Source of the DNA: an archaeon
GTDB taxonomy: Archaea; EX4484-52; WAPT01
Assembly: GCA_029258795.1 (NCBI GenBank)
Contig: JAPDKB010000008.1
Location: forward strand, 80,043-144,042
Direction: 5' to 3'
DNA: 64,000 bases
Shown: piece by piece, positions 32,004-54,248 of the stretch
How the letters are laid out: every line of letters begins with the position of its first letter
How positions within the stretch are numbered: the stretch's first letter is position 1
Position numbers and translations under genes: made by a program
Notes under the pieces: generated by a model
The model's database searches: none
What the model was told of the DNA's origin: nothing
What the model saw: the letters and a program-made list of their open reading frames with translations, nothing else

Positions 32004-32103
32004 GGACCCGTAGTTTAGCCTGGACAGAATGGAGGCTTGCGGAGCCTCTGACCCGGGTTCAAAAGAACTGTGTTATCTCGTTCTGAAAATCCCGGCGGGT
32101 CCG
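32004..32103 (+). tRNA. tRNA-Arg (GCG) with a 26-nt intron in the T-loop
   Basis: Acceptor GGACCCG (32004-32010) pairs with CGGGTCC (32096-32102), and G73 plus an encoded CCA follow (to 32106). D stem GTTT/GAAT, anticodon stem GAGGC/GCCTC with loop TTGCGGA, so the anticodon is GCG (32039-32041). The T stem CCGGG (32053-32057) and CCCGG (32091-32095) enclose TTCAAA then T only if bases 32064-32089 are removed. The intron holds AGAAC...GTTCT that can pair beside the splice sites. A run of A at each end makes the exact joints uncertain by one or two bases. Confidence 0.88.
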
Positions 32104-32188
32104 CCACCGCGCTTTTTTCAAAATTGTGCCATTGGGAGCCATCACTTATATATATTTTTAAGAACTCAAACAATAATGAGGTGATGGC

Positions 32189-32908
32189 TTGCCCGAAAAA
32201 AACAAGCTTGATGATGTTGAGATCAACAGATTGAAAGCCATCGTTGGAATGGGGGATAAATCTTCTTCTCAAGACGATGCCGGAAAGCTCGCTGAAGCAC
32301 TTGAGAAGCTCGAGGGAGAGAAGAAAAAGCTTGAAGAGTTGAGGAAAAGTGTTGTGGCTACAAATGCTCCTCCCAAACCCCAGCGGGAAGTAAAAGAGAG
32401 TGCAGCTAGAATAGAGAGTGCTGCCAAAAAAGAGGAAAGTGCGGAGAAAAAAGTAAGGAGGGACGATGTTAAGCTGAGAGAGAGTGCAAAGAAGCTCGTG
32501 GAAAAGCTCAAAGAAAGTGGGAAAGTTGCTGAAAGAATTCAAACATCTGATGCTGGGCTGAGGATCGGTGGGGTGAAAAAATCCAATAAGGATCTTTTTG
32601 TCAAGATAGATGAGCATAGGGAAATAGCGGAGCAGCTTATCCTTGCAAAGGAAGCGATAAAGGAAATAGCGGAAACAGTGGAGCTTCTTGCCAAAGCCGA
32701 GTCGATAAAGGAGGAAGCGATAAAGAGGTTGGAGGAAAGCTTGGATAAGATAGATCATGCCTGGAAAAGGGCGCTTGAGCTTCTGGAGGAGGGAGACAAA
32801 ACCTACCCCGAATATTATGATGAGAGCAGCACGATTAAGGGAGATGAGTACTACCAGCTCAAGGTGGAGCTGGAAAGGTTAAGGAAAATCCTGGAAAAGA
32901 TAAAGTGA
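32189..32908 (+). CDS. Coiled-coil protein
   Basis: A 239-residue, highly charged helical protein (Lys and Glu make up about a third). Two long coiled-coil segments (about 25-60 and 135-200) flank a Pro/Ala-rich linker. No enzyme motif is seen. It starts with TTG at 32189 preceded by GAGGTGAT, and tatatatattttt lies about 30-45 nt upstream. It lies between two tRNA genes. Function unknown. Confidence 0.7.
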   Translation: MPEKNKLDDVEINRLKAIVGMGDKSSSQDDAGKLAEALEKLEGEKKKLEELRKSVVATNAPPKPQREVKESAARIESAAKKEESAEKKVRRDDVKLRESAKKLVEKLKESGKVAERIQTSDAGLRIGGVKKSNKDLFVKIDEHREIAEQLILAKEAIKEIAETVELLAKAESIKEEAIKRLEESLDKIDHAWKRALELLEEGDKTYPEYYDESSTIKGDEYYQLKVELERLRKILEKIK

Positions 32909-32997
32909 AATTAAAGATGGTGAGTAAGGATTGTTGTTCCTTCTGTGCTTTTCATCAAAACTTTAAAAATTAAGCCATGAAAATAATTCTGTTCTGT

Positions 32998-33185
32998 GCG
33001 GGGGTTGCCGAGCCTGGTCAAAGGCGCGGGACTCAAGGGCGCAGGGCTCTTGAGTGATGAGCCAACACGGCAATGATATGATGTGCTGAGTTATCCCGTG
33101 GCTCAGTGCCTTCGTGGGTTCGAATGCTGCGGAGAAAGCTGAATAATTGCTGGAGGCTTCGCAGCTGAAAGTCCCACCCCCCGCA
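32998..33185 (+). tRNA. tRNA-Leu (CAA) with two introns
   Basis: Acceptor GCGGGGG/CCCCCGC (32998-33004, 33178-33184), A73 and encoded CCA. The anticodon stem CGGGA (33027-33031) and TCCCG (33094-33098) encloses CT-CAA-G with a 55-nt intron (33038-33092) at 37/38; the intron has CTTGAG, which can pair with CTCAAG around the anticodon. The long variable arm TGGCTCAGTGCCTTC identifies class II. The T stem GTGGG (33114-33118) pairs with CCCAC (33173-33177), and a 47-nt intron (33125-33171) splits the T-loop as TTCGAA + T. It carries GCTGCG/CGCAGC. Mature length is about 86. Confidence 0.9.
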
Positions 33186-33246
33186 CCACACCTTATCTCC
33201 GCTTTTTCTTATGTTTGGATTTTTGGACTCTCGAGATACCCACAGT

Positions 33247-33256
33247 CATTTAAAGC
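33247..33256 (+). promoter_or_regulatory. TATA-like element of hxlAB
   Basis: The element catttaaagc ends about 20 nt before the GTG at 33277. That distance supports a leaderless start there rather than at the ATG at 33211, which lies upstream of the element. Confidence 0.5.
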
Positions 33257-33276
33257 TTACTACCTCAACAATCCTC

Positions 33277-33906
33277 GTGCGGTTGCAGGTTGCGCTTGAT
33301 TTTGTGAAGCTGGAAGATGCTTTGAAAGTTGCCAGTGCTGTTTCTCCATACGTGGATATCCTGGAGGCGGGTACTCCCCTTATAAAAGCTGAGGGGATGA
33401 AGGCGGTAAGAGAGCTATCACAGCTTGGTCTGCCTGTCATGGCGGACATGAAAACAATGGACACTGGCTATCTGGAAGTTGAGCTTGCAGCAGTCAATGA
33501 TGCCAAAATAGTTAGCGTTATGGGCTTAGCGGATGATGCCACCATAGCTTCGGCAATGGAAGCCGCAAGGGATTACGGTGTTGAAATCATGGTGGATATG
33601 ATGAATGCAATAAGTGAGGAAAACATAAAACGCGTCGCAGGTTTCAGACCGAATTATTTGCTGGTGCATGTTGGGATAGACCAGCAGGAAGCCGGAAAGA
33701 GCACGCTTGAACAGTTTGAGAAGATGGTGATGCTAGCTGGTAAGGATGTTAATTTTGCTGTTGCCGGCGGGCTGGATGAAGATGAGATAAAGAAACTTCC
33801 GAAAACCGAGAGGCTGGAAATTGTGGTGGTTGGCGGAGCGATAATAAGGAGGGAAAACCCCGCAGAGAGGGCAAAGATAATCTCGGATGTGGTGAAAAGC
33901 ATATGA
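33277..33906 (+). CDS. hxlA: 3-hexulose-6-phosphate synthase
   Basis: A 209-residue (beta/alpha)8 enzyme of the OMP-decarboxylase superfamily that links formaldehyde with ribulose 5-phosphate, or runs in reverse to supply pentose. Motifs: LQVALDFVKLEDALKVA at the start, VDILEAGTPLIKAEG, VMADMKTMDTGYLE (metal and phosphate site), and AVAGGLDEDEI. The frame opens at ATG 33211, but the family begins at LQVALDF, so GTG 33277 is chosen, matched by a TATA element. In archaea lacking the oxidative pentose pathway this gives ribose. hxlB overlaps by 4 bases. Confidence 0.9.
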   Translation: MRLQVALDFVKLEDALKVASAVSPYVDILEAGTPLIKAEGMKAVRELSQLGLPVMADMKTMDTGYLEVELAAVNDAKIVSVMGLADDATIASAMEAARDYGVEIMVDMMNAISEENIKRVAGFRPNYLLVHVGIDQQEAGKSTLEQFEKMVMLAGKDVNFAVAGGLDEDEIKKLPKTERLEIVVVGGAIIRRENPAERAKIISDVVKSI

Positions 33907-34502
33907 AGGTTTATAGGGTGGCTAGGGATTACCTTCTCAAGAGCATAGAGAAAAATCTGCGCAATGTGGATGAGGGCGCTGTCAACAAGTTTATAGAGCT
34001 GCTTGAGAAGGCGAAGACGGAGGGGAGGCGTGTCTTTCTCATCGGAGCTGGGAGAAGCGGTCTGGTGGCAAAGGCAGTGGGGATGAGACTGGTGCATCTG
34101 GATATTGAGGCTTATGTTGTTGGGGAGACCATCACAAGACCCCTGCACAAAGGAGATATCGTCATTGCGATATCGGGATCAGGGGAGACGACTTCTGTTG
34201 CTTCAGTTGTTAAGAAGGCAAGGGAGCTTGGGGGTGTTGTGGTTGCGATAACCTCAAAGCCATCATCCACCATAGGAAAACTTGCGGACATCATGATAAA
34301 GCTTGAAAGTAAAAGGCCGGAGGATGATGAATCCAACTATCTTGTGAGGCAGATAGAGGAAAGGAAAGCTCCGATCTCACCGCTTGGAACTCTTTTTGAG
34401 CTTTCAGCACTCATTTTCCTTGACAGCATGATAAGCGAGCTTGGGGCCAGACTTGAGATGGATGAGGAGGATATGAGAAAGAGGCACACGAACATAGAGT
34501 AA
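33903..34502 (+). CDS. hxlB: 6-phospho-3-hexuloisomerase
   Basis: A 199-residue SIS-domain isomerase that interconverts hexulose 6-phosphate and fructose 6-phosphate. GAGRSGLVAKAVGMRL (sugar phosphate binding), ISGSGETTS and PLGTLFELSALIFLDSM are the usual motifs. It overlaps the hxlA stop (ATGA), so both are made together. The pair forms the reverse RuMP route to ribulose 5-phosphate. Confidence 0.94.
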   Translation: MKVYRVARDYLLKSIEKNLRNVDEGAVNKFIELLEKAKTEGRRVFLIGAGRSGLVAKAVGMRLVHLDIEAYVVGETITRPLHKGDIVIAISGSGETTSVASVVKKARELGGVVVAITSKPSSTIGKLADIMIKLESKRPEDDESNYLVRQIEERKAPISPLGTLFELSALIFLDSMISELGARLEMDEEDMRKRHTNIE

Positions 34503-34545
34503 CGGTTTAAGCTTTTACCCTAGTCAGTTCTGTAAATTTAATTGT

Positions 34546-34851
34546 TGGTAAAAACATCAAAAAAGCTTAGGTAAAAAGAAGGTAACTGTTCCTTCTGCAG
34601 ATATTGATTGGGTTGAAGAATTTTATTTGAAAAATGGTTATAAACCTGTCCAATTCTTAGTAAAAGTAAAAAAGGAAAAGCTTTCAAAAGATTATAAAAA
34701 TAAAGGATATAAAATCCTAAATGAAAGAGCAGAAGGAAAATACAAAATATTTTACATAAACATAAGAAAGTATGATCCAAAATTAAGAGAAAGATTAAAG
34801 ATATTATTTAATGCTGATGAAGTAATTTATATAATGGAAAAGAAGTTATAA
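34546..34851 (+). CDS. Hypothetical protein in AT-rich island
   Basis: About 101 residues, very Lys/Ile/Tyr-rich with AT-rich codons (many aaa, ata, tta), unlike the genes around it. TTG at 34546 or 34543 could be the start; the next TTG at 34627 would lose DIDWVEEFYLKNGYKPVQF, which looks like part of the fold. An alternating strand-helix pattern (FLVKVKK, GYKILNERAEGKYKIFYINI) is seen. No family recognised. It looks imported and precedes an attC-like element in a cassette-like layout. Confidence 0.5.
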
Positions 34852-34924
34852 AATGTTCCTTCCACCAGAGCATCTGCAACTCTGCGCAAAATCAAAGATT
34901 TTGCTTGCCTCACTCCGTTCGGTC

Positions 34925-35019
34925 GTTGAACAAGCGTTATCAGGTTCGCCGGACGCTCACGCTGGCTCACCCAAATTTGTGCCAAAGGCACAAACTTCTG
35001 ATAACGCTATATGTTAAGT
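34925..35019 (+). repeat. attC-like inverted-repeat element
   Basis: A perfect 10-bp inverted repeat, GCGTTATCAG (34934-34943) and CTGATAACGC (34998-35007), encloses 54 bases with a further small hairpin (GTGCCAAAGGCAC). A GTTRRRY-type box, GTTAAGT, follows at 35013-35019 and a weaker counterpart GTTGAAC lies at 34925. The total of about 95 bp is in the size range of integron attC sites. Related words (GGCTCACCCAAATTTG) recur at about 35802-35827. No integrase is in the window. Confidence 0.4.
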
Positions 35020-35040
35020 CCAATCAGCCTCGGGGCGCAT

Positions 35041-35562
35041 TTAAAGAATGTTGAATTTAAAAAGAACAACAATAATTAAAAAAATTAAATTGAATAACAT
35101 AAAGTAATTTTCTGAAATTCCTTTAATATTTTTGTCTTTAATTCTTTGCATCCATTTCTTTGAGTTTTCAGATTTAATGAATAAATTGTCTGGGATAAAA
35201 ATTCCCAAACCTTCCTTTTTCTTTATCTTCAAAAATAGAGCAAAAGGATAAGTTTCAAAGACACATAAATAATCTAAGAAAATATGACTCGCATATGGAA
35301 TTAAAACTAATATAAAGAAAATCTTATCTATCATACCAAGAATAAACGAAAGAAGTAAGCCAATTATAATCAAACCAAATGGCTCTTGAATCCATGTTCT
35401 TCTATGATACCATGGAGCTTTTTTGTTGAATTTATGATCATAATCTATTAAGATGCCAAATATTAAAGAAAACAAAATTGTGAGCAGTATATTGACTGAA
35501 CTGAATGGAATAAGTAGTAAGCATACACCAATAGCAAAAATGAAATGGTTTAGCCAATTCAT
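35041..35562 (-). CDS. YdjM-like membrane-bound hydrolase (DUF457)
   Basis: A 173-residue protein with four or five membrane helices and the conserved polar residues LIDYDHKFNKKAPWYHRRTW and YASHIFLDYL. This matches the YdjM/DUF457 family, predicted metal-dependent membrane hydrolases with His/Asp ligands at helix ends. The gene is strongly AT-rich, unlike the host, and is bordered by inverted copies of GTTAAGTCC (35013-35021 and 35660-35668), suggesting insertion as a unit. Probably of DPANN origin. Confidence 0.72.
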   Translation of the reverse strand: MNWLNHFIFAIGVCLLLIPFSSVNILLTILFSLIFGILIDYDHKFNKKAPWYHRRTWIQEPFGLIIIGLLLSFILGMIDKIFFILVLIPYASHIFLDYLCVFETYPFALFLKIKKKEGLGIFIPDNLFIKSENSKKWMQRIKDKNIKGISENYFMLFNLIFLIIVVLFKFNIL

Positions 35563-35907
35563 TAAACATTAGTAAATTTGGATATTATAAACATTTAGTG
35601 CCCATCGGCTGACTTCTCCGAATTGCTTCACAATTCTCGACCGCTTCAAGTATTCGTGGGGACTTAACAGCAATTTAACGGAAAATCCCACTTTTTTATA
35701 AAGAAGTCCTGTTTCTATATAGCCTTGCAGGAATTTTCCCAAATTTCCCACGCTTCGCTTCGGTGCTAACGCACTCGGACAACAGGTGGATATGTGGTTC
35801 GCTTCGCTCACACAAATTTGCTCACTTCGTTGGATTTTTCCCAAGTTCGCCTTTAATGAACTTCATAAAACGAAATAGCCATACCAACGATAAGATTACA
35901 GAATTGC
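35563..35907 (+). repeat. AT-rich intergenic stretch with island repeats
   Basis: No convincing gene. It contains the inverted partner GGACTTAAC (35660-35668), CTTCGCTTCGGTGCTAACGC and TTCGCTTCGCTCACACAAAT words that resemble the element at 34925-35019. A minus-strand open frame (35569-35844) crosses the repeats and is not believed. The high-GC host sequence resumes with hypA at 35908. Confidence 0.4.
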
Positions 35908-36234
35908 CTAGTCCTTCACCAGAATTTCTATCTCCTTCCCTTCAATAATGTCCACAACATCGTTGCAGAAAGGACATCTTATGAAGTGAACGTGAGCAGG
36001 GATGTCCACCTCTCCTTCATACCCGCAAGTCCTGCATCTTATTTTCGGCTTGATTTCGATGAACTCCAGCTTTATTCTCTCAAGCGCTGTGCCTTTAATC
36101 ATGCTTTCTATCGCGAACCTCACAAAATCAACATTACCATTCAGCTTGCTGAGCTTGATGTACACTCTATTAGGGAGCTCTCCCATGTTCAGAAGGGAGT
36201 TGTATATTTTCTCCACAGTATCAAACTCATGCAT
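35908..36234 (-). CDS. hypA: Hydrogenase nickel-insertion protein HypA
   Basis: A 108-residue nickel chaperone for [NiFe]-hydrogenase. The N-terminus must be MHE, since His2 binds nickel; MHEFDTVEKIYNSLL begins at 36234, although the frame extends 9 codons upstream. Zinc site: CRTCGYEG and IRCPFCNDV. The TATA-like aagtttttata sits about 25-35 nt upstream of 36234. It is close to the hydrogenase operon and its protease. Confidence 0.9.
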   Translation of the reverse strand: MHEFDTVEKIYNSLLNMGELPNRVYIKLSKLNGNVDFVRFAIESMIKGTALERIKLEFIEIKPKIRCRTCGYEGEVDIPAHVHFIRCPFCNDVVDIIEGKEIEILVKD

Positions 36235-36257
36235 AGTATCAATTATTATTCTCCATT

Positions 36258-36272
36258 GCATTATAAAAACTT
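36258..36272. promoter_or_regulatory. Bidirectional promoter between hypA and membrane protein
   Basis: The segment attataaaaactttt gives a TATA box in both directions: about 25-30 nt before ATG 36294 on the plus strand, and about 25-35 nt before the hypA ATG at 36234 on the minus strand. Confidence 0.55.
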
Positions 36273-36293
36273 TTATTCATAGGGAAATATAGC

Positions 36294-36695
36294 ATGAAGA
36301 AAAAAGAAAAAAACAGGAGCTCAATTCTCGTGCTGTGTGTGTATGCCTACGGTGTTGCAAGTGTCGTGTTCCCTTTGTTTGGAGGGATAGTACTCCTTCC
36401 AGTGTTCAATTATTTTTCAGTTGCGTTGCCCTTCCTAAAACACATGGCACAGCTATGGGCGTTTGTCGCGGGGCTCAACGCTTCAGCACTTTATCTGGCG
36501 AGAGAAGGCTATACCGAGCTAGCAAGAAAAATTTTCAATTTTGCAACGATTGCCGGCATAGTTACTTTTGCTGCTTTCGGCATAGCACCGTTCTTATCCA
36601 TACTTGCATCAAGCCACGTCAGCTTTTATGAGAAAGTGGTGCGCCATGAAAAGAAGCGTGATCATGTGCATAGGAAACGAGTTAAGAGGAGATGA
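36294..36695 (+). CDS. Small membrane protein, unknown
   Basis: A 133-residue protein with three predicted membrane helices and a very basic C-terminus (EKKRDHVHRKRVKRR). No family recognised. Its last 50 bases overlap the start of the hydrogenase protease gene in another frame, so the two are co-transcribed. It may be linked with hydrogenase assembly, but this is only an inference from position. Confidence 0.65.
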   Translation: MKKKEKNRSSILVLCVYAYGVASVVFPLFGGIVLLPVFNYFSVALPFLKHMAQLWAFVAGLNASALYLAREGYTELARKIFNFATIAGIVTFAAFGIAPFLSILASSHVSFYEKVVRHEKKRDHVHRKRVKRR

Positions 36696-37071
36696 TGGCG
36701 TAGCTCTTCTGTTTTACGACATGCTGAAGAGAGATGAAGAGGTAAGCGGGATTGCAGATGTGGTTAAGATTGGTTCAGCGCTAACAATCAAACCAGCAGA
36801 AAATGCTGAGAAAATCATTGTGATTGATGCTGTGGATTTTGGTGGAGAGGTGGGAGAGGTGAAGGTGTTAGAGCTGGATGATTTGGATGAGGTAGCGGGC
36901 TTCACCCACAAACCCTCCCTAAGGATAATGTTGGGCTCGTTGAACACGAGAGATGTGTATATAGTAGGGATTCAGCCGAAGAATTTAGGGATTGGAGAGG
37001 AAATAAGTGAGGAATGTCTGAGCGCTTATGATAAGGTAAGGAGTGTCATCCTCCAAATTCTTTCATCCTGA
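36646..37071 (+). CDS. hycI: Hydrogenase maturation endopeptidase (HycI/HyaD type)
   Basis: A 141-residue nickel-dependent protease that trims the C-terminus of the hydrogenase large subunit. Motifs GNELRGDDG, DAVDFGG and FTHKPS provide the Glu, Asp and His metal ligands. The frame opens at 36604, but the conserved part begins at the ATG at 36646 (KRSVIMCIGNE). It converges with the hydrogenase operon, whose large subunit indeed has a C-terminal tail after DPCFSC for removal. Confidence 0.9.
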   Translation: MKRSVIMCIGNELRGDDGVALLFYDMLKRDEEVSGIADVVKIGSALTIKPAENAEKIIVIDAVDFGGEVGEVKVLELDDLDEVAGFTHKPSLRIMLGSLNTRDVYIVGIQPKNLGIGEEISEECLSAYDKVRSVILQILSS

Positions 37072-37383
37072 CGCGTATTTTTTTCTGAGTTCCTCGATCA
37101 TGGATACAAGGGGCTTCACGTCCTCCATGACCTCGGGGTGTGTGTTCTCAAGCTCCTTCAGCGCGTTTTCGTAAACCATCCGCGGGAGCTCGCCATCTCT
37201 CTTCATCTCCATTAGATAGGAGGCGTAGCTCCTCACAGCGTACATGAACTCGCGCAAACTCTCAACTCTTATCTCATCCACCAGCGGCATCCAGGCCTCA
37301 AGCACAAAATTGTTGAGTTCTGCAAGCGTTATCAGCTTCCTTATCGTTCTCCTATCCTCTTCACTTACCTTCAGCTTTACCAC
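37063..37383 (-). CDS. Hypothetical protein at the end of the Mbh operon
   Basis: A 106-residue helical protein, mostly charged, with no recognised domain. Its start lies 23 bases inside the mbhN 3' end, so it is translated with the hydrogenase. It overlaps the convergent hycI stop by 9 bases. It could be a regulator or assembly factor for the complex, but nothing in the sequence proves that. Confidence 0.65.
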   Translation of the reverse strand: MVKLKVSEEDRRTIRKLITLAELNNFVLEAWMPLVDEIRVESLREFMYAVRSYASYLMEMKRDGELPRMVYENALKELENTHPEVMEDVKPLVSMIEELRKKYASG

Positions 37384-37735
37384 CTCCTGCCTTGAAATGC
37401 ACCACCCTCGGCATCTCGGTTAATCTGGGGTGCACCATACTGAAGTGTTTTGTGAGGTGGATTGCATTTGCCTTTATCACCTCGCTGCACACTTCTTGGC
37501 ATGCTCCACAATATATGCATTTTTTCATATCATAGCTCCAGCTTTTGTTGGGCTCGACCTTTATTGCTCCTGTGGGACATACGCGCTGGCATGCTCCACA
37601 ATATATGCATTTTTCAGGTAGATGGTAGAGCTTGCCCCTGAACCCATCCGGCACCCTAGCTCCTTCGTAAGGATAAAGCCGGGTGGCATATTTCCTGAGC
37701 ATTGAAGTGAAAACGTGCCTGAAGAGTTTAAACAT
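37361..37735 (-). CDS. mbhN: Hydrogenase ferredoxin-like subunit (MbhN/NuoI type)
   Basis: A 124-residue subunit with two [4Fe-4S] motifs: CIYCGACQRVCP and CIYCGACQEVCS. It passes electrons from ferredoxin towards the MbhJ cluster. The two KCIYCGACQ segments are identical over about 27 nucleotides (near 37498-37524 and 37588-37614), including silent positions. Its start overlaps the mbhM stop by 8 bases. Confidence 0.93.
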   Translation of the reverse strand: MFKLFRHVFTSMLRKYATRLYPYEGARVPDGFRGKLYHLPEKCIYCGACQRVCPTGAIKVEPNKSWSYDMKKCIYCGACQEVCSEVIKANAIHLTKHFSMVHPRLTEMPRVVHFKAGGGKAEGK

Positions 37736-38600
37736 AAACCCTCACCAAAATGACCATTGCTACTAATATTGTCAGGAGTGCATATATTTTTAGCGTGTTC
37801 TTTATCCTCGTTCTTGCGAGAGATGCCCTCACTGCAGAAAGGAAAAGAACAATTGCTATGGATGCGAGTAAAAATTGAAGAAAGGGGAGGGGTCCGTTGA
37901 GATATAGTAAGATGAAGAGAGATATGAGAGTGTAGAGCTTCAGATAGGTCACCATCTCCGTAATTGCGTAAGGCACAGAGGAGAATTCTGTTGCGTATCC
38001 AGTCACTATCTCCTGATGCGCGTTAGGAATGTTGAAGGGCTGAAGGTTGAGCTGTGGAAGGATGGTGAGGAGGTACACCACACCCAAAAACGGAAACACA
38101 GTGATCAGATTTTCGTTGATAGCTAAAGGAATGGTCATATCCCTTGCCACATAATATGCTGGCCAGAGTGTTGTAAGGAGAAACGCCCCTTCAAAAGACA
38201 GGAATTGTACAAGAGCCCGCATCCCTCCTATCTCGCTGAACGCGCTAAAGCTACCCAACCCCGCAAAGGTAACGAAAAGGTAAGCTGCAGAGAGGAGCAG
38301 CACAACAAGTATGATATTTGTTTGTGCGGAATAAATGCTGTTTTTGAAGGGCACCACCATCAAACATGCAAGCGCTGCTGACAATAAAGCAAAACTCAGC
38401 CAGATTTCGTGGTTTGATGCCCTGTAGGACAGGTTTTCCTTTCCCATCAGCTTTATCAGGTCATATAACGGCTGGAGGAGTGGTGGGCCCTTTCGATTCT
38501 GCATCCTCGCAACGAGCTTTCTGTGCAGTCCAAACAAAAACGTGCTGTACAATAAGGCAAAGAGCAGGTAAAGTAAAGCGCTTGCAACCTCAGCGAGCAT
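37728..38600 (-). CDS. mbhM: Hydrogenase membrane subunit (MbhM/NuoH type)
   Basis: A 290-residue integral membrane protein with about eight helices. It matches the NuoH/HyfC type that anchors the hydrogenase module: NRKGPPLLQPLYDLIKL after the first helix, FEGAFLLTT, and FNIPNAHQEIVTGYATEFSS. It links catalysis with ion movement. It overlaps the preceding large-subunit gene by 11 bases. Confidence 0.93.
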   Translation of the reverse strand: MLAEVASALLYLLFALLYSTFLFGLHRKLVARMQNRKGPPLLQPLYDLIKLMGKENLSYRASNHEIWLSFALLSAALACLMVVPFKNSIYSAQTNIILVVLLLSAAYLFVTFAGLGSFSAFSEIGGMRALVQFLSFEGAFLLTTLWPAYYVARDMTIPLAINENLITVFPFLGVVYLLTILPQLNLQPFNIPNAHQEIVTGYATEFSSVPYAITEMVTYLKLYTLISLFILLYLNGPLPFLQFLLASIAIVLFLSAVRASLARTRIKNTLKIYALLTILVAMVILVRVYV

Positions 38601-40227: not shown

Positions 40228-40228
40228 A

Positions 40229-40906: not shown

Positions 40907-40911
40907 CCCTA

Positions 40912-41394
40912 TCACCTGCAGCTTGCATCCCTCATTTTCAATCCATCCTTGTTTGTTTCGAAACGCTTTATCCATATTTCGATGGTTTTCATCAATCCGT
41001 CTATTATCGCTTCTGGTTTTGGGGGGCATCCATGAACATAAACATCAACGGGGATGTGCTTGTGCACTGGCCCAACGATGTTGTAAGATCCATTGAACAC
41101 GCCGCAGCTTGTGGTGCAGGTGCCCACCGCAAGCACCGCTTTTGGATGGGGCATCTGGTCATAAATTCTTTTGAGGCGTGGCGCTATCTTTCTGTTCACA
41201 GCACCAGTTACAACCAGTATGTCTCCCTGCCTCGGATTGCCCTTCTCCAGCACACCAAATCTCTCAACATCGTATTTTGCGGAGAGTAGGGTGAATATTT
41301 CCACATCACATCCATTACACCCACCAGTATCAAGATGTATTATCCATGGCGATTTCTTTGCGGCTTTCATCACAATCTTGGCAACGAAATCCAT
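40912..41394 (-). CDS. mbhJ: Hydrogenase small subunit (MbhJ/NuoB type)
   Basis: A 160-residue subunit that holds the proximal [4Fe-4S] cluster. Ligands: DTGGCNGCDVEI, GTCTTSCG and HGCPPKPEA. The N-terminus has no twin-arginine signal, as expected for a cytoplasmic-side complex. It overlaps the mbhI 3' end by 25 bases and is followed by pyrH. Confidence 0.94.
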   Translation of the reverse strand: MDFVAKIVMKAAKKSPWIIHLDTGGCNGCDVEIFTLLSAKYDVERFGVLEKGNPRQGDILVVTGAVNRKIAPRLKRIYDQMPHPKAVLAVGTCTTSCGVFNGSYNIVGPVHKHIPVDVYVHGCPPKPEAIIDGLMKTIEIWIKRFETNKDGLKMRDASCR

Positions 41395-41678
41395 ACGAGC
41401 ACCACCATCGTTGCAAGGACAAGCAATATGTATATTATCATCCTGTTCATATTTTCGTTTCCAATCCTTCTATTCTTTATCACGCTGATTCTGTATGCTC
41501 GGTTGTGCACCACCAGTCTTTCCGTCTCTCCGCACAGATACATGGAAGATGCGTCCTCCACAAGATTGGCAGGATTCTTCCTTCTCTCCATCAGAAAGAT
41601 TGCCAGAGTAACTATAAATAGACAAATGATTGCCTGCACTCCGATGTTCTCGAGTGGAATAGCAGTTTCATCCATCAT
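41370..41678 (-). CDS. mbhI: Hydrogenase small membrane subunit (MbhI-like)
   Basis: A 102-residue protein with two membrane helices (VQAIICLFIVTLAIFLME and MIIYILLVLATMVVLVWI) joined by a polar loop with RAYRISVIKNRR. Position between mbhH and mbhJ and the two-helix layout fit MbhI, the linker between antiporter and hydrogenase parts; sequence similarity is not strong. Confidence 0.75.
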   Translation of the reverse strand: MMDETAIPLENIGVQAIICLFIVTLAIFLMERRKNPANLVEDASSMYLCGETERLVVHNRAYRISVIKNRRIGNENMNRMIIYILLVLATMVVLVWISLPRL

Positions 41679-41685
41679 TCACACA

Positions 41686-43104
41686 TCACCCGTAAACCAT
41701 TAAGGCGTGAGCCATCATTTTTCCTGCGGTGATTAAGGGCTCATACCATATGCCCAGCAGGAACGTGAGCGCGAAAAAAACGAAGACAATGGAGATGTGT
41801 GGGATTTTGTTCTCCACACTCCTTCTGTAATGGAATTCCTTTCTCAGATTGTAAGCGTTGAGGCCGTAAGCTGCTGACGCCAGGATAAGTGTGATGCTCA
41901 GCAAGAATACTGGAATGGATGCTTGCATAAATCCAATGATGGCAAGATACTTTGATATGAATCCTGAGGTTAGGGGTACACCTATACTTGACACCACTCC
42001 TGTGGAAAACAGGAGCTCTATGAGCTCCTTAACTATGCCTCCTCGAAGCACGAGGCTTCCGAAGATGAGCGTTTCGAATATCATCATGTTGAGCTGGTGT
42101 ATCATCGCATATACAATTAGTTCTCCGTTCAGCACTGAAGCTGTGAGAAGCATGAGGGCTAAAGCGGCTTGCGCCACGCTTCCGTATGCAAGTCCTTCCA
42201 TAAGATTTTTTGCGCGGAACGCCATCACAATGACAACCAAACCAGTCACACCTGAAAGAACGGTCAGGAAAGTGGAAAAGATTTTCATGCTCAGGAGATT
42301 TAAATCAACCATCAGTTTGGAAAGCAGGTAGAAAGAAATTGTGGGCGATAATGCTCCAAGGAAAAATGCAAAGGGCACGTTGGTTGTGCGCATGAGCTTT
42401 GTCTTCCACAGGTAGAATGGAAACACTGCCAGCTTGAAAATCATTGCAAGTATGACCATGGCTGATGCGAACAGTGCTGTGGGAAGCGGGTGGGTGGAAG
42501 CGATTCTTATTTCTTGGAGGTTGAGCGTGCCGTAAGCAGTATAGATAATGAACACGCCAAGAAGGAAGAAGGTTGATGCTAAGGAAGAGGAGAAAGCGTA
42601 ATACAAAGCCGATCTGTATCTACCGCGCTCTTTGGAAATCGCTGCAAGTCCGTATGATGCTATGCTCATCACTTCCATGTAAACGAATAGGTTGAACAGG
42701 TCGTTAGTGTGGAGCATGCCAAAGACGCCTATGAAGAGGAGAATGAACAGCACATGCGCCAAATGAGTTATCCTCTCGGTTTTTAAGCTCAGAAAAACGA
42801 TCAGCATGGAAATCGCTGCGAAAAGCAGCAATATGGAGTTGTAGAAATTAACCGCAACCTCAATACCATAAGGAGGGGGCCACCCACCCACGCTGAGCTC
42901 TAGTAGGGGGGAGCTACCAACAATCTCCAGAAATGTGTATGCCACAAGAACAACAACAATCACTGGCACCACTAGATTCAGATTCTCTATCCAGCTGGAC
43001 TTTTTCCTGGCTATCAGGATGAGATTGAGGATTAGGAAGAGCACAAGTACTGCCATCGTTCCAAAACTCGTGATTTCAAAGCTGCTTGCCCCAAATATTA
43101 TCAT
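41686..43104 (-). CDS. mbhH: Antiporter-like subunit (MbhH/MrpD type)
   Basis: A 472-residue protein with about 14 membrane helices, the proton-translocating type related to MrpD and NuoN/M. Conserved charged sites include FNLFVYMEVMSIASYGLAA (key Glu), FKLAVFPFYLWKTKLM (Lys) and a later lysine helix. It carries ion flow in the membrane arm. The start overlaps the mbhG stop by 4 bases. Confidence 0.93.
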   Translation of the reverse strand: MIIFGASSFEITSFGTMAVLVLFLILNLILIARKKSSWIENLNLVVPVIVVVLVAYTFLEIVGSSPLLELSVGGWPPPYGIEVAVNFYNSILLLFAAISMLIVFLSLKTERITHLAHVLFILLFIGVFGMLHTNDLFNLFVYMEVMSIASYGLAAISKERGRYRSALYYAFSSSLASTFFLLGVFIIYTAYGTLNLQEIRIASTHPLPTALFASAMVILAMIFKLAVFPFYLWKTKLMRTTNVPFAFFLGALSPTISFYLLSKLMVDLNLLSMKIFSTFLTVLSGVTGLVVIVMAFRAKNLMEGLAYGSVAQAALALMLLTASVLNGELIVYAMIHQLNMMIFETLIFGSLVLRGGIVKELIELLFSTGVVSSIGVPLTSGFISKYLAIIGFMQASIPVFLLSITLILASAAYGLNAYNLRKEFHYRRSVENKIPHISIVFVFFALTFLLGIWYEPLITAGKMMAHALMVYG

Positions 43105-43418
43105 CTTTCACCACACTCTACCTTTCTTATGAATAATGCTAACAACACGGCAGTTATGGAAACGTCTATCACGATGGAAGTGAGTATGAGCGCCTGAGGT
43201 AAAGGGTCAACACTCATCTTTGCAAATGTATCGACGGCTGAAGCACTTGACAAAATCGGCGGGAGGGATGATGGGGAGAAGCCCGCGCTCGCCAGAAAAA
43301 CATGCGTTCCATTCACCATGATGTTCAGACCCATCACTTTCTTTATCATGCTTTTCTCCACCACCACAACAACCATTCCTGTTGTGAAGAGCAACATGGC
43401 GAGTGTGTGTTCAATCAT
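43101..43418 (-). CDS. mbhG: Antiporter subunit (MbhG/MrpC type)
   Basis: A 105-residue protein with three membrane helices, NuoK/MrpC family: LFTTGMVVVVVEKSMIKKVMGLNIMVNGTHVFL in parts, then PLPQALILTSIVIDVSITAVLL. ATG 43418 is preferred to 43433, because GGAGGT lies 7 nt before it and it overlaps the preceding stop by 4 bases. Confidence 0.92.
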   Translation of the reverse strand: MIEHTLAMLLFTTGMVVVVVEKSMIKKVMGLNIMVNGTHVFLASAGFSPSSLPPILSSASAVDTFAKMSVDPLPQALILTSIVIDVSITAVLLALFIRKVECGER

Positions 43419-43807
43419 CTCACATACCTCCATAGGATTATAACAAGGGCTGTTGTGACCATCATACTTCCTGCAAAGTTCATGAGGAGTGTGTATTCCC
43501 CGCTCCAGAACGACATGATGTGTTGTGATTGGAGTATTTTCGCTCTGAAAGTTGCGCCAATCAGTAAAATAAGCAGGATCACAAAACCTCCGAAAGTTTC
43601 GAGGAATGAAAACTCCTTCTCCACAAATATTTCCCTTGCAACATTTTCTCTCATCGTGAGAAAAACCAGCAAAAACGCCGATGCCATGATGACTCCTCCA
43701 GCAAATCCCCCTCCAGGAGATAGGTGGCCGTGCAGCGCTACAGCCAGCCCTACCATCATGATTATGGGAAACATTATTCTTGTGGATGCTCTGGCTATTT
43801 CATCCAT
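43415..43807 (-). CDS. mbhF: Antiporter subunit (MbhF/MrpB type)
   Basis: A 130-residue protein with four membrane helices of the MnhB type: VALHGHLSPGGGFAGGVIMASA is the signature. The start at ATG 43807 overlaps mbhE by 8 bases, as in the other Mrp-like genes; the longer frame to 43855 lies fully inside mbhE. Confidence 0.92.
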   Translation of the reverse strand: MDEIARASTRIMFPIIMMVGLAVALHGHLSPGGGFAGGVIMASAFLLVFLTMRENVAREIFVEKEFSFLETFGGFVILLILLIGATFRAKILQSQHIMSFWSGEYTLLMNFAGSMMVTTALVIILWRYVR

Positions 43808-44093
43808 TTTCAACCACCTTTTTCCCTCTGTGCCTTTCTCTATAAAGCAAAGCAAGGACTGAGATGGATGCTGCTATCAGCACGAGCTCTTCTCCAAGTG
43901 TATCATAGCCCCTGAACTCCCAGACTATCGCATTCACGGCATTAGCGGAAGTTAGAAGGTTTATGCTTTTCTCAGCATAAAATCTTGCAACATTTCCATA
44001 CATCGTGGTTGTTGTGCTCATACCTATGAGTATTAGAATGCATGAGATAATGATCAGAGAGGCTGTTGCTGCAATCATCTCCACCTTATTCAT
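43800..44093 (-). CDS. mbhE: Hydrogenase subunit MbhE (MrpB N-terminal-like)
   Basis: A 97-residue protein with two membrane helices and the segment IVWEFRGYDTLGEELVLIAASISVLALLYR, typical of the hydrogenase subunit/MrpB-like family (MbhE). ATG 44093 is preferred to GTG 44102; GGTGAGAGG precedes it. It overlaps the mbhD stop by 8 bases. Confidence 0.88.
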   Translation of the reverse strand: MNKVEMIAATASLIIISCILILIGMSTTTTMYGNVARFYAEKSINLLTSANAVNAIVWEFRGYDTLGEELVLIAASISVLALLYRERHRGKKVVENG

Positions 44094-44325
44094 ACCTCTC
44101 ACCGCTCCTCTTTATGGCATAGACAAAGATGGCCGTGGATGCAGCGGCATTTACACTTGCCTGCGTTATTGCAAGATCCGGAGCGTTTACCAGATAAAAA
44201 TACAGCGCAACAACGAAGTTCATCACTCCAAGCACTATCGCTGCTTTCAGCATATCCTTTAGCATTAGGACTCTTACGGACAGTATTATGCATATAGTCA
44301 ATAGCAACACGTGAATGAATGACAT
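44086..44325 (-). CDS. mbhD: Hydrogenase subunit MbhD (DUF4040)
   Basis: A 79-residue DUF4040 protein with two to three membrane helices. LKAAIVLGVMNFVVALYFYLVNAPDLAITQASVNAAASTAIFVYAI in parts is the family signature, with the conserved PD in the middle. It corresponds to the C-terminal part of MrpA. Confidence 0.9.
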   Translation of the reverse strand: MSFIHVLLLTICIILSVRVLMLKDMLKAAIVLGVMNFVVALYFYLVNAPDLAITQASVNAAASTAIFVYAIKRSGERYE

Positions 44326-44328
44326 GGG

Positions 44329-44628
44329 TCATCTCCTCTTCCCTTTACCTTCAACAACGTGTATTCGGTAGTGGCATCTTGCTATGAAGTGTGAGGAAAC
44401 CGGAACGGTAAGGAAAGTCAGGAGCAGGAGGAACAGCGTTTTCACCCTGAGCTCGTGGGATGGCGCGTAAATGGAAAATAGCAGCAGGCTGAGCATGACA
44501 CCCCCCACATATATCATGGTTGCGGACTGCATCTTCATCATGAAGCTTCTGAATCTGATCACGCCTACTGTGCCCAGCAGCATGGAGATGGATGGGACGA
44601 GGAAAAGGATGTCATACATGGCCACCAT
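44329..44628 (-). CDS. mbhC: Antiporter subunit (MbhC/MrpG type)
   Basis: A 99-residue protein with three membrane helices of the MnhG/PhaG type: FLVPSISMLLGTVGVIRFRSFMMKMQSATM includes the usual RF...K/H-A pattern, ending TVPVSSHFIARCHYR. GGGTGA lies 6 nt before the ATG. Confidence 0.9.
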   Translation of the reverse strand: MVAMYDILFLVPSISMLLGTVGVIRFRSFMMKMQSATMIYVGGVMLSLLLFSIYAPSHELRVKTLFLLLLTFLTVPVSSHFIARCHYRIHVVEGKGKRR

Positions 44629-44635
44629 CTATTCG

Positions 44636-44884
44636 TCACCCCCTAACGACGTATTTTGTTATGGCTATCGTGCCGATGAATGAAAGCAAAATCATGACTA
44701 TACTTATGTCAAGATAGTATGCTGTTTCCCTCGAAAAAGCCATTATCACCAAATAGATGGAGATCAGTGCTACTGTAAGATCAGTGTACATCATCAGCTC
44801 GTAAAGTTTTCTCGAGGTTAGCAGCTTCACAAACACCATTATACTGGTTAACAGGAGCACGTAAGTGTAAAGCATGGTCACCAC
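44636..44884 (-). CDS. mbhB: Antiporter subunit (MbhB/MrpF type)
   Basis: An 82-residue protein with three membrane helices of the MnhF type (SRKLYELMMYTDLTVALISIYLVIMAF). It overlaps the mbhA stop by 7 bases. It precedes mbhC by 7 bases. Confidence 0.9.
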   Translation of the reverse strand: MVTMLYTYVLLLTSIMVFVKLLTSRKLYELMMYTDLTVALISIYLVIMAFSRETAYYLDISIVMILLSFIGTIAITKYVVRG

Positions 44885-45333
44885 CTCAACGCATCAACGT
44901 ATTTTTTTCCAACCTGCTTCTTGAGTTCTGGAGATGCAACATGCACGATAGCACTATCATCATCGCACCTTACAACTATAGTCCCGGGTGTTAGAGTTAT
45001 CCCGTTGTAAACGAGGAGGTTGACAAGCTCATGATGAGTTGGTCGTTTAATTTTGATGAAACTCTCTTTTTCCTCCCCTCTCAGGATTATCAGTGTCATG
45101 CGAGCATGAGCTTTGATTTCTTCCAAAACAAGCCGTACCGAGTACCTTATAAAAGCCACAACACCCTGAAGAACTTTCAGCTCCTCCTTTCTCGGGAACG
45201 TGAAACGTGCCGACATGAAAGTCACTGCTATGGAAGCTCCGACACCAACCACCAGCTCGTCAGGGCTTGTTGCGCCTGTGAACATTATCCAGCATCCTAT
45301 AAGGATGAGGAACACCACAAAATATCTCTTCAT
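44878..45333 (-). CDS. mbhA: Antiporter subunit (MbhA/MrpE type)
   Basis: A 151-residue MnhE-type protein with two N-terminal membrane helices and a cytoplasmic domain: VAFIRYSVRLVLEEIKAHARM, LVNLLVYNGITLTPGTIVV. It is the first gene of the hydrogenase operon. A TATA box (ctatatatc, 45357-45367) lies about 25-33 nt before the ATG, so the operon message has almost no leader. Confidence 0.92.
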   Translation of the reverse strand: MKRYFVVFLILIGCWIMFTGATSPDELVVGVGASIAVTFMSARFTFPRKEELKVLQGVVAFIRYSVRLVLEEIKAHARMTLIILRGEEKESFIKIKRPTHHELVNLLVYNGITLTPGTIVVRCDDDSAIVHVASPELKKQVGKKYVDALRW

Positions 45334-45356
45334 GCTGATATTTTTGTTTCATCCAT

Positions 45357-45398
45357 GATATATAGTTTTGGGTGGACGGTTTCGAAATCTTTATATAG
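45357..45398. promoter_or_regulatory. Divergent promoters, Mbh operon and 45422 gene
   Basis: Minus strand: ctatatatc at 45357-45367, about 25-33 nt before mbhA. Plus strand: ctttatatag at 45389-45398, about 24-32 nt before ATG 45422. The two TATA boxes are only about 25 bp apart, so initiation in each direction could interfere with the other. Confidence 0.65.
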
Positions 45399-45421
45399 TG
45401 GCGTGAGAAAAAATTAACTTC

Positions 45422-45736
45422 ATGCCCGAGTTCATATTTAGATTACCTGATGGGAAGGAAGTCGGGAGAGCGAAAAACTTGCGGGAATTTTTGAAAAAGC
45501 TCAAAGAAGTCCCCCTTGAGAGTTTGGAGTATCACTTCTACAACAAACACTTTGCACCGTGGTTGAAGGATAATGGACATGGGAAGCTGGTTGCAAGGAT
45601 GAATCTTGTGAAGGTTAAAAGCAGGGAGGAGCTGCGCGACAAGCTCGTTGCGTGCGTTAAAGCGTATATGGATTCAACATCCAAATCAAGGAAAGGAAAG
45701 AGCGGGAGGGGCAGGAAAAATGCTAAAAGGCGTTAA
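45422..45736 (+). CDS. Hypothetical protein, DUF5752-like
   Basis: A 104-residue protein. ESLEYHFYNKHFAPWLKDNGHGKLVARM resembles the DUF5752-type motif (His...FsxWi...eLA), and the last 20 residues are a Lys/Arg/Ser tail. Function unknown. It overlaps the SdpI-like gene by 17 bases. Leaderless start at the ATG. Confidence 0.7.
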   Translation: MPEFIFRLPDGKEVGRAKNLREFLKKLKEVPLESLEYHFYNKHFAPWLKDNGHGKLVARMNLVKVKSREELRDKLVACVKAYMDSTSKSRKGKSGRGRKNAKRR

Positions 45737-46355
45737 GGTTGGATTTGTTATCCTTGCTTTTGCTGTTCTTCTCACGCTCCATTTCTATACTTTTCTGCCC
45801 GGAAGGATAGCGATACACTGGAACGCTGAAGGAGTGCCGGATGGTTATGCATCAAAAGAAGCAGGACTTATGCTCATTCCACTAATTCTTCTCATGGTCC
45901 TGCTTCTCTTCGAGGCGATACCCAGAATAGACCCGCTTTCAAAGAACATAAAGAAGTTCATGAATTTTTATGATGGGTTCGTGATAGCTTTTGCCATATT
46001 CATGGCTTTTGTGCAGGTGCTCCTCTTGCTTTACAATGCGGGGTATGCTTTCAACATGGGCTCACTGATTATTGGAGCGTTGGGCATTTTCCTCGTTTAC
46101 ATCGGAATCGTGCTACCTCACCTCAGAAGAAACTGGTTTATCGGGATAAGGACTCCGTGGACTCTTAGCAGCGAGGCAGTTTGGGAGAAAACTCACAAAT
46201 TGGGCGGGAAGCTGTTCATCTGTGCGGGCATCATCTCCTTGCTTTTCAGTGTGTTTTTCAGCAAGGCCGTTGTTGTGCTTGTCATTCTTCTGATAGCCAT
46301 CAGCGTTATTCTCATCACGTATTCTTACCTGCTCTGGAGGAAGGAAAGGAAGTGA
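45720..46355 (+). CDS. SdpI/DUF1648-family membrane protein
   Basis: A 211-residue protein with six membrane helices. The DUF1648 part has LPGRIAIHWNAEGVPDGYASK and the SdpI part IGIRTPWTLSSEAVWEKTHKLGGKLF. In Bacillus, SdpI gives immunity to a killing peptide and passes a signal; the role in archaea is unknown. ATG 45720 lies in the end of the previous gene. It converges with the nuclease gene (41-base overlap). Confidence 0.85.
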   Translation: MLKGVKVGFVILAFAVLLTLHFYTFLPGRIAIHWNAEGVPDGYASKEAGLMLIPLILLMVLLLFEAIPRIDPLSKNIKKFMNFYDGFVIAFAIFMAFVQVLLLLYNAGYAFNMGSLIIGALGIFLVYIGIVLPHLRRNWFIGIRTPWTLSSEAVWEKTHKLGGKLFICAGIISLLFSVFFSKAVVVLVILLIAISVILITYSYLLWRKERK

Positions 46356-46833
46356 GCTCTTCCGAGCTGACCACCCTTCTGAAATTCTCTGGATGCCAGG
46401 AGTTGGGATAGTCAACCCATCTCGCATGATTCTGCTCCACAAGCAATCGATTCACGTTGAGAAAATGAGTCCTGTTCGCTTTCACGTAAAGAATGGCAAT
46501 AACCCTTCCGTACCCGTCATAGGTGCTTTTTTCGTCCACATCCAGATACACGGTGGTGTGATTTGAGAGCAATCTTTCCAGAAATTCCTTGGCCTCCTTG
46601 CCTCCTTCCTCTTCCAGCTCAAACGCATCTATGTCAGCAAGCCGCACCTTAAAACTCTGGTTTTCCTTGAAGCCAGCAGTACTTTTAACCCAGAGAGTAT
46701 CGCCGTCCACCACCCTTTCAACGACACAGATAGCGTTGATTTCGGGAGAGGGCGTGCTACCATTCTGAACGCAGAAGAGATTGAGCAATATCGCAATCAG
46801 CAAAAAGAATGGTATTTTGGTTCGCATCTCCAT
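46315..46833 (-). CDS. Secreted thermonuclease (SNase family)
   Basis: A 172-residue protein with an N-terminal signal (FFLLIAILLNLFC) and a staphylococcal nuclease domain. Active-site phrases: VVDGDTLWV (Asp), VRLADIDAFELEEEGG (Arg, Asp, Glu) and GYGRVIAILYV (Arg). It probably degrades external DNA or RNA. The last 20 residues run over the end of the SdpI-like gene. Its promoter is shared with the divergent 46888 gene. Confidence 0.85.
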   Translation of the reverse strand: MEMRTKIPFFLLIAILLNLFCVQNGSTPSPEINAICVVERVVDGDTLWVKSTAGFKENQSFKVRLADIDAFELEEEGGKEAKEFLERLLSNHTTVYLDVDEKSTYDGYGRVIAILYVKANRTHFLNVNRLLVEQNHARWVDYPNSWHPENFRRVVSSEELTSFPSSRAGKNT

Positions 46834-46887
46834 ATTCCATACTGAAAGATGATTATGAATTTAAATTTAGGGTGAAATTATAGGTTT

Positions 46888-47211
46888 ATGAGAAGCAACG
46901 GGTATCTGAAAAAAGTTGAAGAGAGTATAAGAAACTCTGAGGCGTACAGAGAGCTGATCGATGAGGCGGGTGGATTGAGTAAGAGGTATGTTGAGAAACA
47001 GCTCGATAGATTTCTGAGAATTATCAGAATTGGGCTGGATGAGAACGTGATGGAAATCAGCAGGAGAGAGCTTGATGAGCTCATTGATGCCGGGAAGATG
47101 GGAGATGTGTTCAGAATGTACGTGGATAACGGCATTTATGGTGGTGATCTGACCTCACCACAAACAACCTACAGGATCATTAAAAGATGCATGGAGAAGG
47201 CGAAGCTATAA
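46888..47211 (+). CDS. Hypothetical protein
   Basis: A 107-residue helical, charged protein with no recognised family. SKRYVEKQLDRFLRIIRIGLDENVMEISRRELDEL forms the centre. The element gaatttaaatttag about 20-30 nt upstream is likely a TATA box. It ends 6 bases inside the convergent MTA phosphorylase gene. Confidence 0.6.
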   Translation: MRSNGYLKKVEESIRNSEAYRELIDEAGGLSKRYVEKQLDRFLRIIRIGLDENVMEISRRELDELIDAGKMGDVFRMYVDNGIYGGDLTSPQTTYRIIKRCMEKAKL

Positions 47212-47916
47212 TTTTTCAGCGAGTTCTGTGATTACGTTCTTCAGCTTTCCCTGCACCCTTTTCATGAGCTCAAAGACCTCCTCCAGCGTTATCCTGCTCT
47301 GCATACCCGCCGCGTAGTTGGTAACAACGCAAAGCGACGCGTATTCCAAATTCTGTTCTCTGGCGAGGACGGCCTCTGGTACGGAGGTCATGCCAACGAC
47401 ATGAGCTCCGAGCATTCCGTACATTCTTATCTCTGCTGGCGTCTCAAATCTTGGACCTGCGGTACACACGTAGATTTTGTTGGTATGAACGACGAACCTC
47501 GCTTTTTCGCACAGCTCCTTCAGGATTGAAATCAATCTTTCCGAATACGGGTTGGTCATGTCCACATGCACTACCTCATCCTCAAAATACGTCCACACAT
47601 GCTTCGTGAAGTCAAGAAAATCAGATGGCAACACAACGCTTCCAGGTTTGATTTCTTCTGTGAGGGAGCCCACCGAGTTTATTCCTACCACAATTTTAGC
47701 GTTGGAAAGCTTAGCCGCCATTATATTTGCATGATGATTCAGTTTGTGTGGTGGTGCTTCATGCTCCTTTCCATGGCGCGGAATGAAAAGGAATTCCTTG
47801 CTTTCCGTGGATTTAACACGATATGCAACAACCTTTCCGTAAGGTGTGCTTATCTCAACCTCCTCACTATCCTCAAACAGCTTTTCCAGTCCGCTCCCTC
47901 CTATCACGCAGAGCAT
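47206..47916 (-). CDS. S-methyl-5'-thioadenosine/thioinosine phosphorylase
   Basis: A 236-residue purine-nucleoside phosphorylase of the MTAP class. VIGGSGLEKLF (phosphate loop), FIPRHGKEHEAPPHKLNHHANI, CTAGPRFETPAEIRMYG and VVGMTSVPEAVLAREQNLEYASL are typical. It splits methylthioadenosine or methylthioinosine, a byproduct of SAM use, fitting the SAM synthetase gene nearby. Substrate choice cannot be fixed from the motifs. Confidence 0.9.
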   Translation of the reverse strand: MLCVIGGSGLEKLFEDSEEVEISTPYGKVVAYRVKSTESKEFLFIPRHGKEHEAPPHKLNHHANIMAAKLSNAKIVVGINSVGSLTEEIKPGSVVLPSDFLDFTKHVWTYFEDEVVHVDMTNPYSERLISILKELCEKARFVVHTNKIYVCTAGPRFETPAEIRMYGMLGAHVVGMTSVPEAVLAREQNLEYASLCVVTNYAAGMQSRITLEEVFELMKRVQGKLKNVITELAEKL

Positions 47917-47952
47917 GAAGAAAAATTGTGGAAGAAAAGATTTTATTGTTGG

Positions 47953-48082
47953 CGCCGGGGGTGGGATTCTCGTTAGGGTGCCATCCTAACCACTCAAGTG
48001 CGGCACCTTCTTTCGAACCCACGCGCCCTTGCGGGCACCAGCTCTCCAGGCTGGCGCACTGGCCTGGCTATGCGACCCCGGC
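47953..48082 (-). tRNA. tRNA-Ser (GGA) with a 45-nt intron in the T-loop
   Basis: On the minus strand, acceptor GCCGGGG (48082-48076) pairs with CCCCGGC (47960-47954), then G73 and encoded CCA (to 47950). The anticodon stem CCAGC/GCTGG holds loop CTGGAGA, so the anticodon is GGA (48047-48045). The long variable arm TGCCCGCAAGGGCGC marks a class II tRNA. The T stem GTGGG (48022-48018) and CCCAC (47965-47961) enclose TTCGAA + T only when 48011-47967 are removed. Inside, GGTGCC/GGCACC or GTTAGG/CCTAAC can pair. No anticodon intron. Confidence 0.9.
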
Positions 48083-54193: not shown

Positions 54194-54248
54194 TTTAAAG
54201 CTTCAGACCATACATTAATAAACACAACACGCCAAGGTGGTGATTCTA

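Follow-up and report, generated by a model that had tools for sequence, protein, structure and literature searches.

Introns at one T-loop position in most tRNA genes of a DPANN archaeon and the apparent recent spread of one intron family

Archaeal tRNA genes can carry introns at noncanonical positions, and position 59/60 of the T loop is already among the recorded sites (PMC4090602). Large-scale transposition of tRNA introns is known from Thermoproteales (PMC4033280), whose translocatable introns (Sugahara 2008; Fujishima 2010; PMC4033280, PMC4090602) show, in the consulted parts of these studies, similar introns across the tRNA species of one genome, noncanonical sites, a bulge–helix–bulge (BHB) motif and tRNA bodies that do not share the relatedness of the introns. 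The same holds for the introns described here, which interrupt the T loop of three tRNA genes, tRNA-Arg(GCG), tRNA-Leu(CAA) and tRNA-Ser(GGA), in a 64,000-nucleotide stretch of archaeal DNA (the window), and that of many other tRNA genes in the same genome. The consulted parts of the Thermoproteales studies describe many intron positions and an (αβ)2 endonuclease with a Crenarchaea-specific loop (CSL), whereas the present genome, which belongs to DPANN, has about two thirds of its introns at 59/60 and encodes one α4-like endonuclease. A second resemblance is to the Asgard Atabeyarchaeia and Freyarchaeia (PMC11291895), where most tRNA genes are interrupted, often noncanonically and with several introns per gene; introns affect 92–95% of their tRNAs compared with 37/46 here, and the consulted part of that report names no single preferred position. 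The density of 0.96 introns per tRNA gene compares with a mean of 0.84 in Thermoproteales and 0.21 across archaea (PMC8450103). A limited literature search found no report of intron transposition in DPANN. New are the lineage, the dominance of one site, the α4-like endonuclease and the pairs of genes seen before and after intron gain; the kind of intron itself is known.

The window covers bases 80043-144042 of contig C3 of the source genome (G000), a 1.17-Mb archaeal metagenome bin that is 96.3% complete. The comparison drew on 34 genomes of a small DPANN phylum, all of one order. Two are sister species of the same genus, G001 (S144_79_esom) and G002 (M10_metabat1_scaf2bin.076), both metagenome-assembled genomes labelled "DPANN group archaeon"; the outgroups named below belong to families f2 (G003 and G018) and f3 (G004 and G010).

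A first-pass annotation had placed interruptions of 26, 47 and 45 nt at 59/60 of the three window tRNAs, and all three are present where it put them. Removal of the insert after TTCRAA leaves a 5-bp T stem, a 7-nt T loop and a 7-bp acceptor stem in each. The features are as follows, in window coordinates.

32004..32102, plus strand: tRNA-Arg(GCG), exons and intron; after splicing, acceptor stem 7/7, anticodon stem 5/5, T stem 5/5
32064..32089, plus strand: 26-nt intron at 59/60 of tRNA-Arg(GCG); central helix TTCA:TGAA 4/4, inner helix GAAC/GTTC
32998..33184, plus strand: tRNA-Leu(CAA) with two introns; exons 98.8% identical to sister orthologs without a T-loop intron
33038..33092, plus strand: 55-nt intron at 37/38 of tRNA-Leu(CAA); central helix CTCA:TGAG 4/4
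33125..33171, plus strand: 47-nt intron at 59/60 of tRNA-Leu(CAA); member of a 15-member family, identical to the intron of tRNA-Leu(CAG) elsewhere in the genome
47954..48082, minus strand: tRNA-Ser(GGA), exons and intron; acceptor stem 7/7, anticodon stem 5/5, T stem 5/5
47967..48011, minus strand: 45-nt intron at 59/60 of tRNA-Ser(GGA), relaxed BHB; central helix TTCG:CGAG 4/4, inner helix not adjoining the bulges

The inserts are very probably genuine archaeal BHB introns, spliced by EndA and RtcB and multiplied at 59/60 through their portability, with one family spread recently and precisely. The pairing expected of such introns is found throughout the genome. If the cut follows base 59, positions 54–57 of the exon lie opposite intron bases −6 to −3; these exon bases read TTCR in all 46 tRNA loci, and the core helix they form with the 3′ end of the intron pairs 4/4 for 27 of the 30 introns, whereas shuffled introns do so in 3% of cases. 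Among 60 introns from five genomes, the intron base opposite position 57 covaries with it: it is T in 31 cases and C in none with A57, and T in 11 and C in 8 with G57 (Fisher P = 1.4e-4), so that an intron C is seen solely with G57. In an alignment of 14 interrupted genes, 92.6% of pair cells were paired in comparison with 73.8% in shuffles, and changes on both sides of a pair numbered 75 and 23.5, respectively; the core helix was paired in all sequences, and the inner helix contained both-side changes. Removal of the predicted intron restores full cloverleaf stems in the three window genes and in the genome set. The boundary itself is fixed by comparison, as Val(GAC) and Gly(CCC) have T59 like their intronless orthologs and moving the cut back by one base would yield A59.

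Standard tRNA finders miss these genes, as they might if the inserts were not introns and the genes were pseudogenes. ARAGORN detected none of the three window genes, and neither did the Rfam tRNA model at its gathering threshold, where Arg(GCG) scores 28.7 bits against a cut-off of 29. The failure is explained by the intron interrupting the T arm. Decay of the genes is hardly credible: their exons match orthologs at 89–99% identity without damage to any stem, and 30 genes are interrupted at this one position. Furthermore, the genome holds no intact copy with the same anticodon for Arg(GCG), Leu(CAA) or Ser(GGA), a check that the first-pass annotation had proposed. Pro(TGG) is the sole duplicated tRNA, with both copies interrupted, and all others are single copy; the window genes are therefore without an intact substitute, each being the only gene for its anticodon.

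To count tRNA loci genome-wide, we used a covariance model built from the 14 interrupted genes together with a purpose-written annotator, both applied to tRNA regions retrieved by searches; the identities of tRNA-Leu(GAG) and elongator tRNA-Met were assigned by eye. A pattern search for T-loop introns gave 16 matches in the genome and 2 with a reversed control. An intron at 59/60 was found in 30 of the 46 loci, about two thirds, confirming the expectation that most tRNAs carry one, and at least one intron was found in 37. By hand count the introns total 44, with 30 at 59/60 and 9 at 37/38 (one of them, in Arg(CCG), of uncertain position); the D loop accounts for 4 and the variable arm of Leu(GAG) for 1. 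The locus count leaves out contig C11. The four intronless tRNAs on this contig were considered as native genes and dropped, as their Thr-Gly-Tyr-Thr order and the long variable arm of the Tyr tRNA look bacterial; the 9.3-kb contig (tRNAs at G000:C11:168-495) is probably a bacterial contaminant of the bin. The model and annotator did not find tRNA-Lys(TTT) and tRNA-Thr(CGT) in the source genome; these may sit in gaps or have too many introns for the model to tolerate.

Comparison with relatives shows that many of the T-loop introns are absent from the sister species. For 25 T-loop-intron tRNAs a sister ortholog was available, and in a hand tally 15 were intronless in every sister having the gene, 8 were shared and 2 were mixed, with the Glu(CTC) intron present among the sisters in G002 only and the Ala(GGC) intron in G001 only. 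In Gln(TTG), Val(GAC) and Thr(GGT), the spliced sequence is 100% identical to the intronless ortholog. The two sisters have 59/60 introns in 8/34 and 9/36 tRNAs. The f2 outgroups have no T-loop intron in the 44 tRNAs read, and the f3 outgroups have 8 and 5, partly in other tRNAs. Genus g3 and genome G005 contain repeated intron families of their own. In our reading, portable introns have spread recently and precisely, and have done so in parallel in several families of this small DPANN phylum.

Within the genus, one sequence cluster unites 15 introns, 11 in different tRNAs of the source genome and 4 in the sisters. The cluster links score above the maximum of 10,000 shuffled comparisons and mostly join different tRNAs; the introns of Ala(CGC) and Val(GAC) are nearly identical and those of Leu(CAA) and Leu(CAG) fully so. 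The core motif of the family occurs in the source genome in T loops only (6/6 sites). In the window, the 59/60 intron of Leu(CAA) belongs to this family and is absent from both sister species. The Arg and Ser introns lie outside it and occupy the same 59/60 site across the genus: the exons of tRNA-Arg(GCG) are 97.3% identical to sister orthologs with introns of 17 and 16 nt, and tRNA-Ser(GGA) has 29-nt introns in the sisters. The first-pass suggestion that such introns had spread through the genome or share an origin thus holds for a large part of the set, given the number of loci, the 11 related introns and the 15 absences in sisters, though not for every intron.

The shared introns could be taken to mean that the T-loop introns go back to the ancestor of the genus or order and disappeared from the sisters rather than being gained in the source genome. 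The eight held in common with a sister, among them Arg(GCG), Ser(GGA), Ser(GCT) and Ile(TAT), do show that some predate the species. As an account of the whole set, wholesale loss is highly improbable: it has to explain the 15 of 25 comparable introns missing from every sister having the gene, the lack of T-loop introns in the 44 tRNAs read from the f2 outgroups and their absence from Val(GAC), Leu(GAG), Leu(TAG) and Ser(TGA) in f3, and near-identical introns in different tRNAs of one genome would not be expected of ancient, separately inherited introns.

The prevalence of 59/60 can be related to the way the two main sites pair. When introns were swapped between hosts of different anticodons, all four core pairs were kept in 88% of cases at 59/60 and in 10% at 37/38. 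The core of a 37/38 intron uses bases 32–35; the high value at 59/60 arises because bases 54–57 are nearly the same in all tRNAs. From this we infer that portability is the reason for the 59/60 hot spot. In the proposed mechanism, the T-loop TTCR, the same in every tRNA, would supply the exon half of the BHB core, and an intron with a YGARAA end would be spliceable in almost any tRNA. Insertion at 59/60 would then be close to neutral and could spread, with the intron excised from the pre-tRNA by EndA and the exons joined by RtcB with archease. In the source genome, one family would have spread recently and precisely in this manner between unrelated tRNA genes.

Ordinary gene conversion, rather than insertion of the intron itself, could also have carried introns from one tRNA gene to another by way of the shared T arm. 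T arms are alike among many tRNAs, and the identical introns of Leu(CAA) and Leu(CAG) sit in similar bodies. We nevertheless consider this route rather unlikely. In body and T stem, the hosts agree with the intronless orthologs of the same tRNAs and do not follow the relatedness of the introns: Val(GAC) retains CCAGG and T59, Gly(CCC) retains T59 and Pro(CGG) retains CCCGG, all as in their intronless orthologs, whereas introns related to theirs occur in hosts with CCGGG and A59, and a conversion tract would need to exceed the intron by a few bases only. As T stem and base 59 stay unchanged in the recipients, the pattern favors precise insertion of the intron itself. A search for reverse transcriptase was negative in all three genomes of the genus (G000, G001 and G002). 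As a tentative and more far-reaching proposal, which we hold possible without expecting it, the introns might be a family of minimal, protein-free mobile RNAs whose only target is the universal T loop. They would enter tRNA genes by base-precise, reverse-splicing-like insertion, repeatedly and independently in several families, in genomes with an α4-type endonuclease and no detectable reverse transcriptase.

Integrated elements offer another route, as 59/60 lies within the tRNA 3′ half typically used as an attachment site. The introns could be kept as breaks in the attachment sites of virus or plasmid integrases, a protection idea that the consulted part of PMC3293823 attributes to Randau and Soell, or be delivered by such elements. 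In Caldiarchaeum, a tRNA-Thr intron was gained by a mobile element (PMC3293823), and the present introns resemble it in their presence and absence between close relatives and, in one case, in a nearby element. That case is tRNA-Glu(CTC) of G002, which carries a family intron absent in G001 and into whose 3′ end a 5.5-kb element has inserted (G002:C17:23010-28493) that encodes a small zinc-ribbon protein and a tyrosine integrase. The element lies between the copies of a 28-bp direct repeat, which differ at one position; the repeat begins 3′ of the T loop and leaves the intron outside, unlike the Caldiarchaeum situation. The element thus sits in an intron-bearing tRNA, and it neither needed the absence of the intron nor visibly brought it. 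This is one case only, and most gains show no element; the one integrase gene of the source genome stands beside tRNA-Gln(TTG), as in G001, and looks like a housekeeping recombinase. An origin through such elements, or retention against them, appears improbable.

The genome encodes the proteins that splicing would require. Two are in the window, and the third is the endonuclease gene on contig C6.

49751..50185, plus strand: archease, RtcB ligase cofactor (PF01951, E 3e-41)
54237..55679, plus strand: RtcB, tRNA-splicing ligase (PF01139, E 1.1e-174)

The single EndA gene encodes 197 amino acids with PF02778 and PF01974 and matches the α4 enzyme of M. jannaschii (1A79) over its full length; across the order, each genome with a match at the search threshold has one gene. 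By gene content and size, the enzyme is predicted to be α4-like and single-unit. EndA of the order is about five residues longer than that of M. jannaschii at the place where A. pernix has its CSL and ARMAN-2 its ASL, both loops linked to broad specificity, and in the alignment the extension has a lysine (FGK) in all aligned sequences of the order and a second lysine in most; there is also a 7-residue insertion in the catalytic domain relative to M. jannaschii. ARMAN-2 (Micrarchaeum, PMC12397907) is likewise a DPANN archaeon with noncanonical tRNA introns, and a loop close to the active site of its enzyme has been proposed to broaden specificity. Its ε2 enzyme is a three-unit protein of 390 residues, in contrast to the apparently single-unit protein described here, with the extension at the same place.

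Several points weigh against our interpretation. At 37 °C, the four-pair core appears in the computed minimum-energy fold of just 3 of the 30 introns, and in most cases an open internal loop is predicted in its place, although the folds are more stable than those of shuffled introns (mean z −3). A relaxed BHB with short or displaced inner helices is seen in several introns, the one in tRNA-Ser(GGA) included, and relaxed BHB motifs have been assigned to (αβ)2 or ε2 endonucleases, not α4 (PMC6379350). Portability accounts for the tolerance of introns at 59/60, not for the insertion step. The source genome is a metagenome bin, and we infer excision and ligation in the cell by EndA and RtcB from gene and intron sequences. 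The analysis found no role for the 59/60 introns.

Other introns and tRNA-like sequences were also noted. D-loop introns of about 48 nt occur in Arg(CCT) (G000:C3:79312-79432), Arg(TCT) (C5:23289-23410) and Val(CAC) (C2:52503-52623); for Arg(TCT) and Val(CAC), the gene is uninterrupted in the sisters having it, and the D loop is therefore a second site of recent gain. Both sisters likewise have an intron at 37/38 of tRNA-Leu(CAA), as do outgroups G003 and G018. The intron in the window (33038-33092) contains C/D-box-like motifs (GTGATGA ... CTGA), as does the 37/38 intron of about 73 nt in elongator tRNA-Met (locus L226, minus strand), with similar motifs in relatives in both cases, and the two introns may double as guide RNAs. 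A tRNA-like gene at G000:C3:58040-58109 has complete stems but A rather than U at position 33; its anticodon would be UCC, and it was not found in the sisters. At G000:C3:64041-64089, a T arm and the 3′ strand of an acceptor stem without a tRNA body form a 3′ fragment, perhaps an integration remnant.

For annotation, the findings mean that tRNA finders not modeling such introns will call these genomes short of most tRNAs. They also challenge the view in the literature that noncanonical introns multiply mainly with (αβ)2 or ε2 endonucleases. The proposed explanation of the hot spot makes the prediction that introns at sites with an invariant exon half are portable and others are not. For the wider question of how archaea gain tRNA introns, this genus offers exact before/after pairs at the same tRNA in closely related genomes, together with copies of one intron in unrelated hosts.

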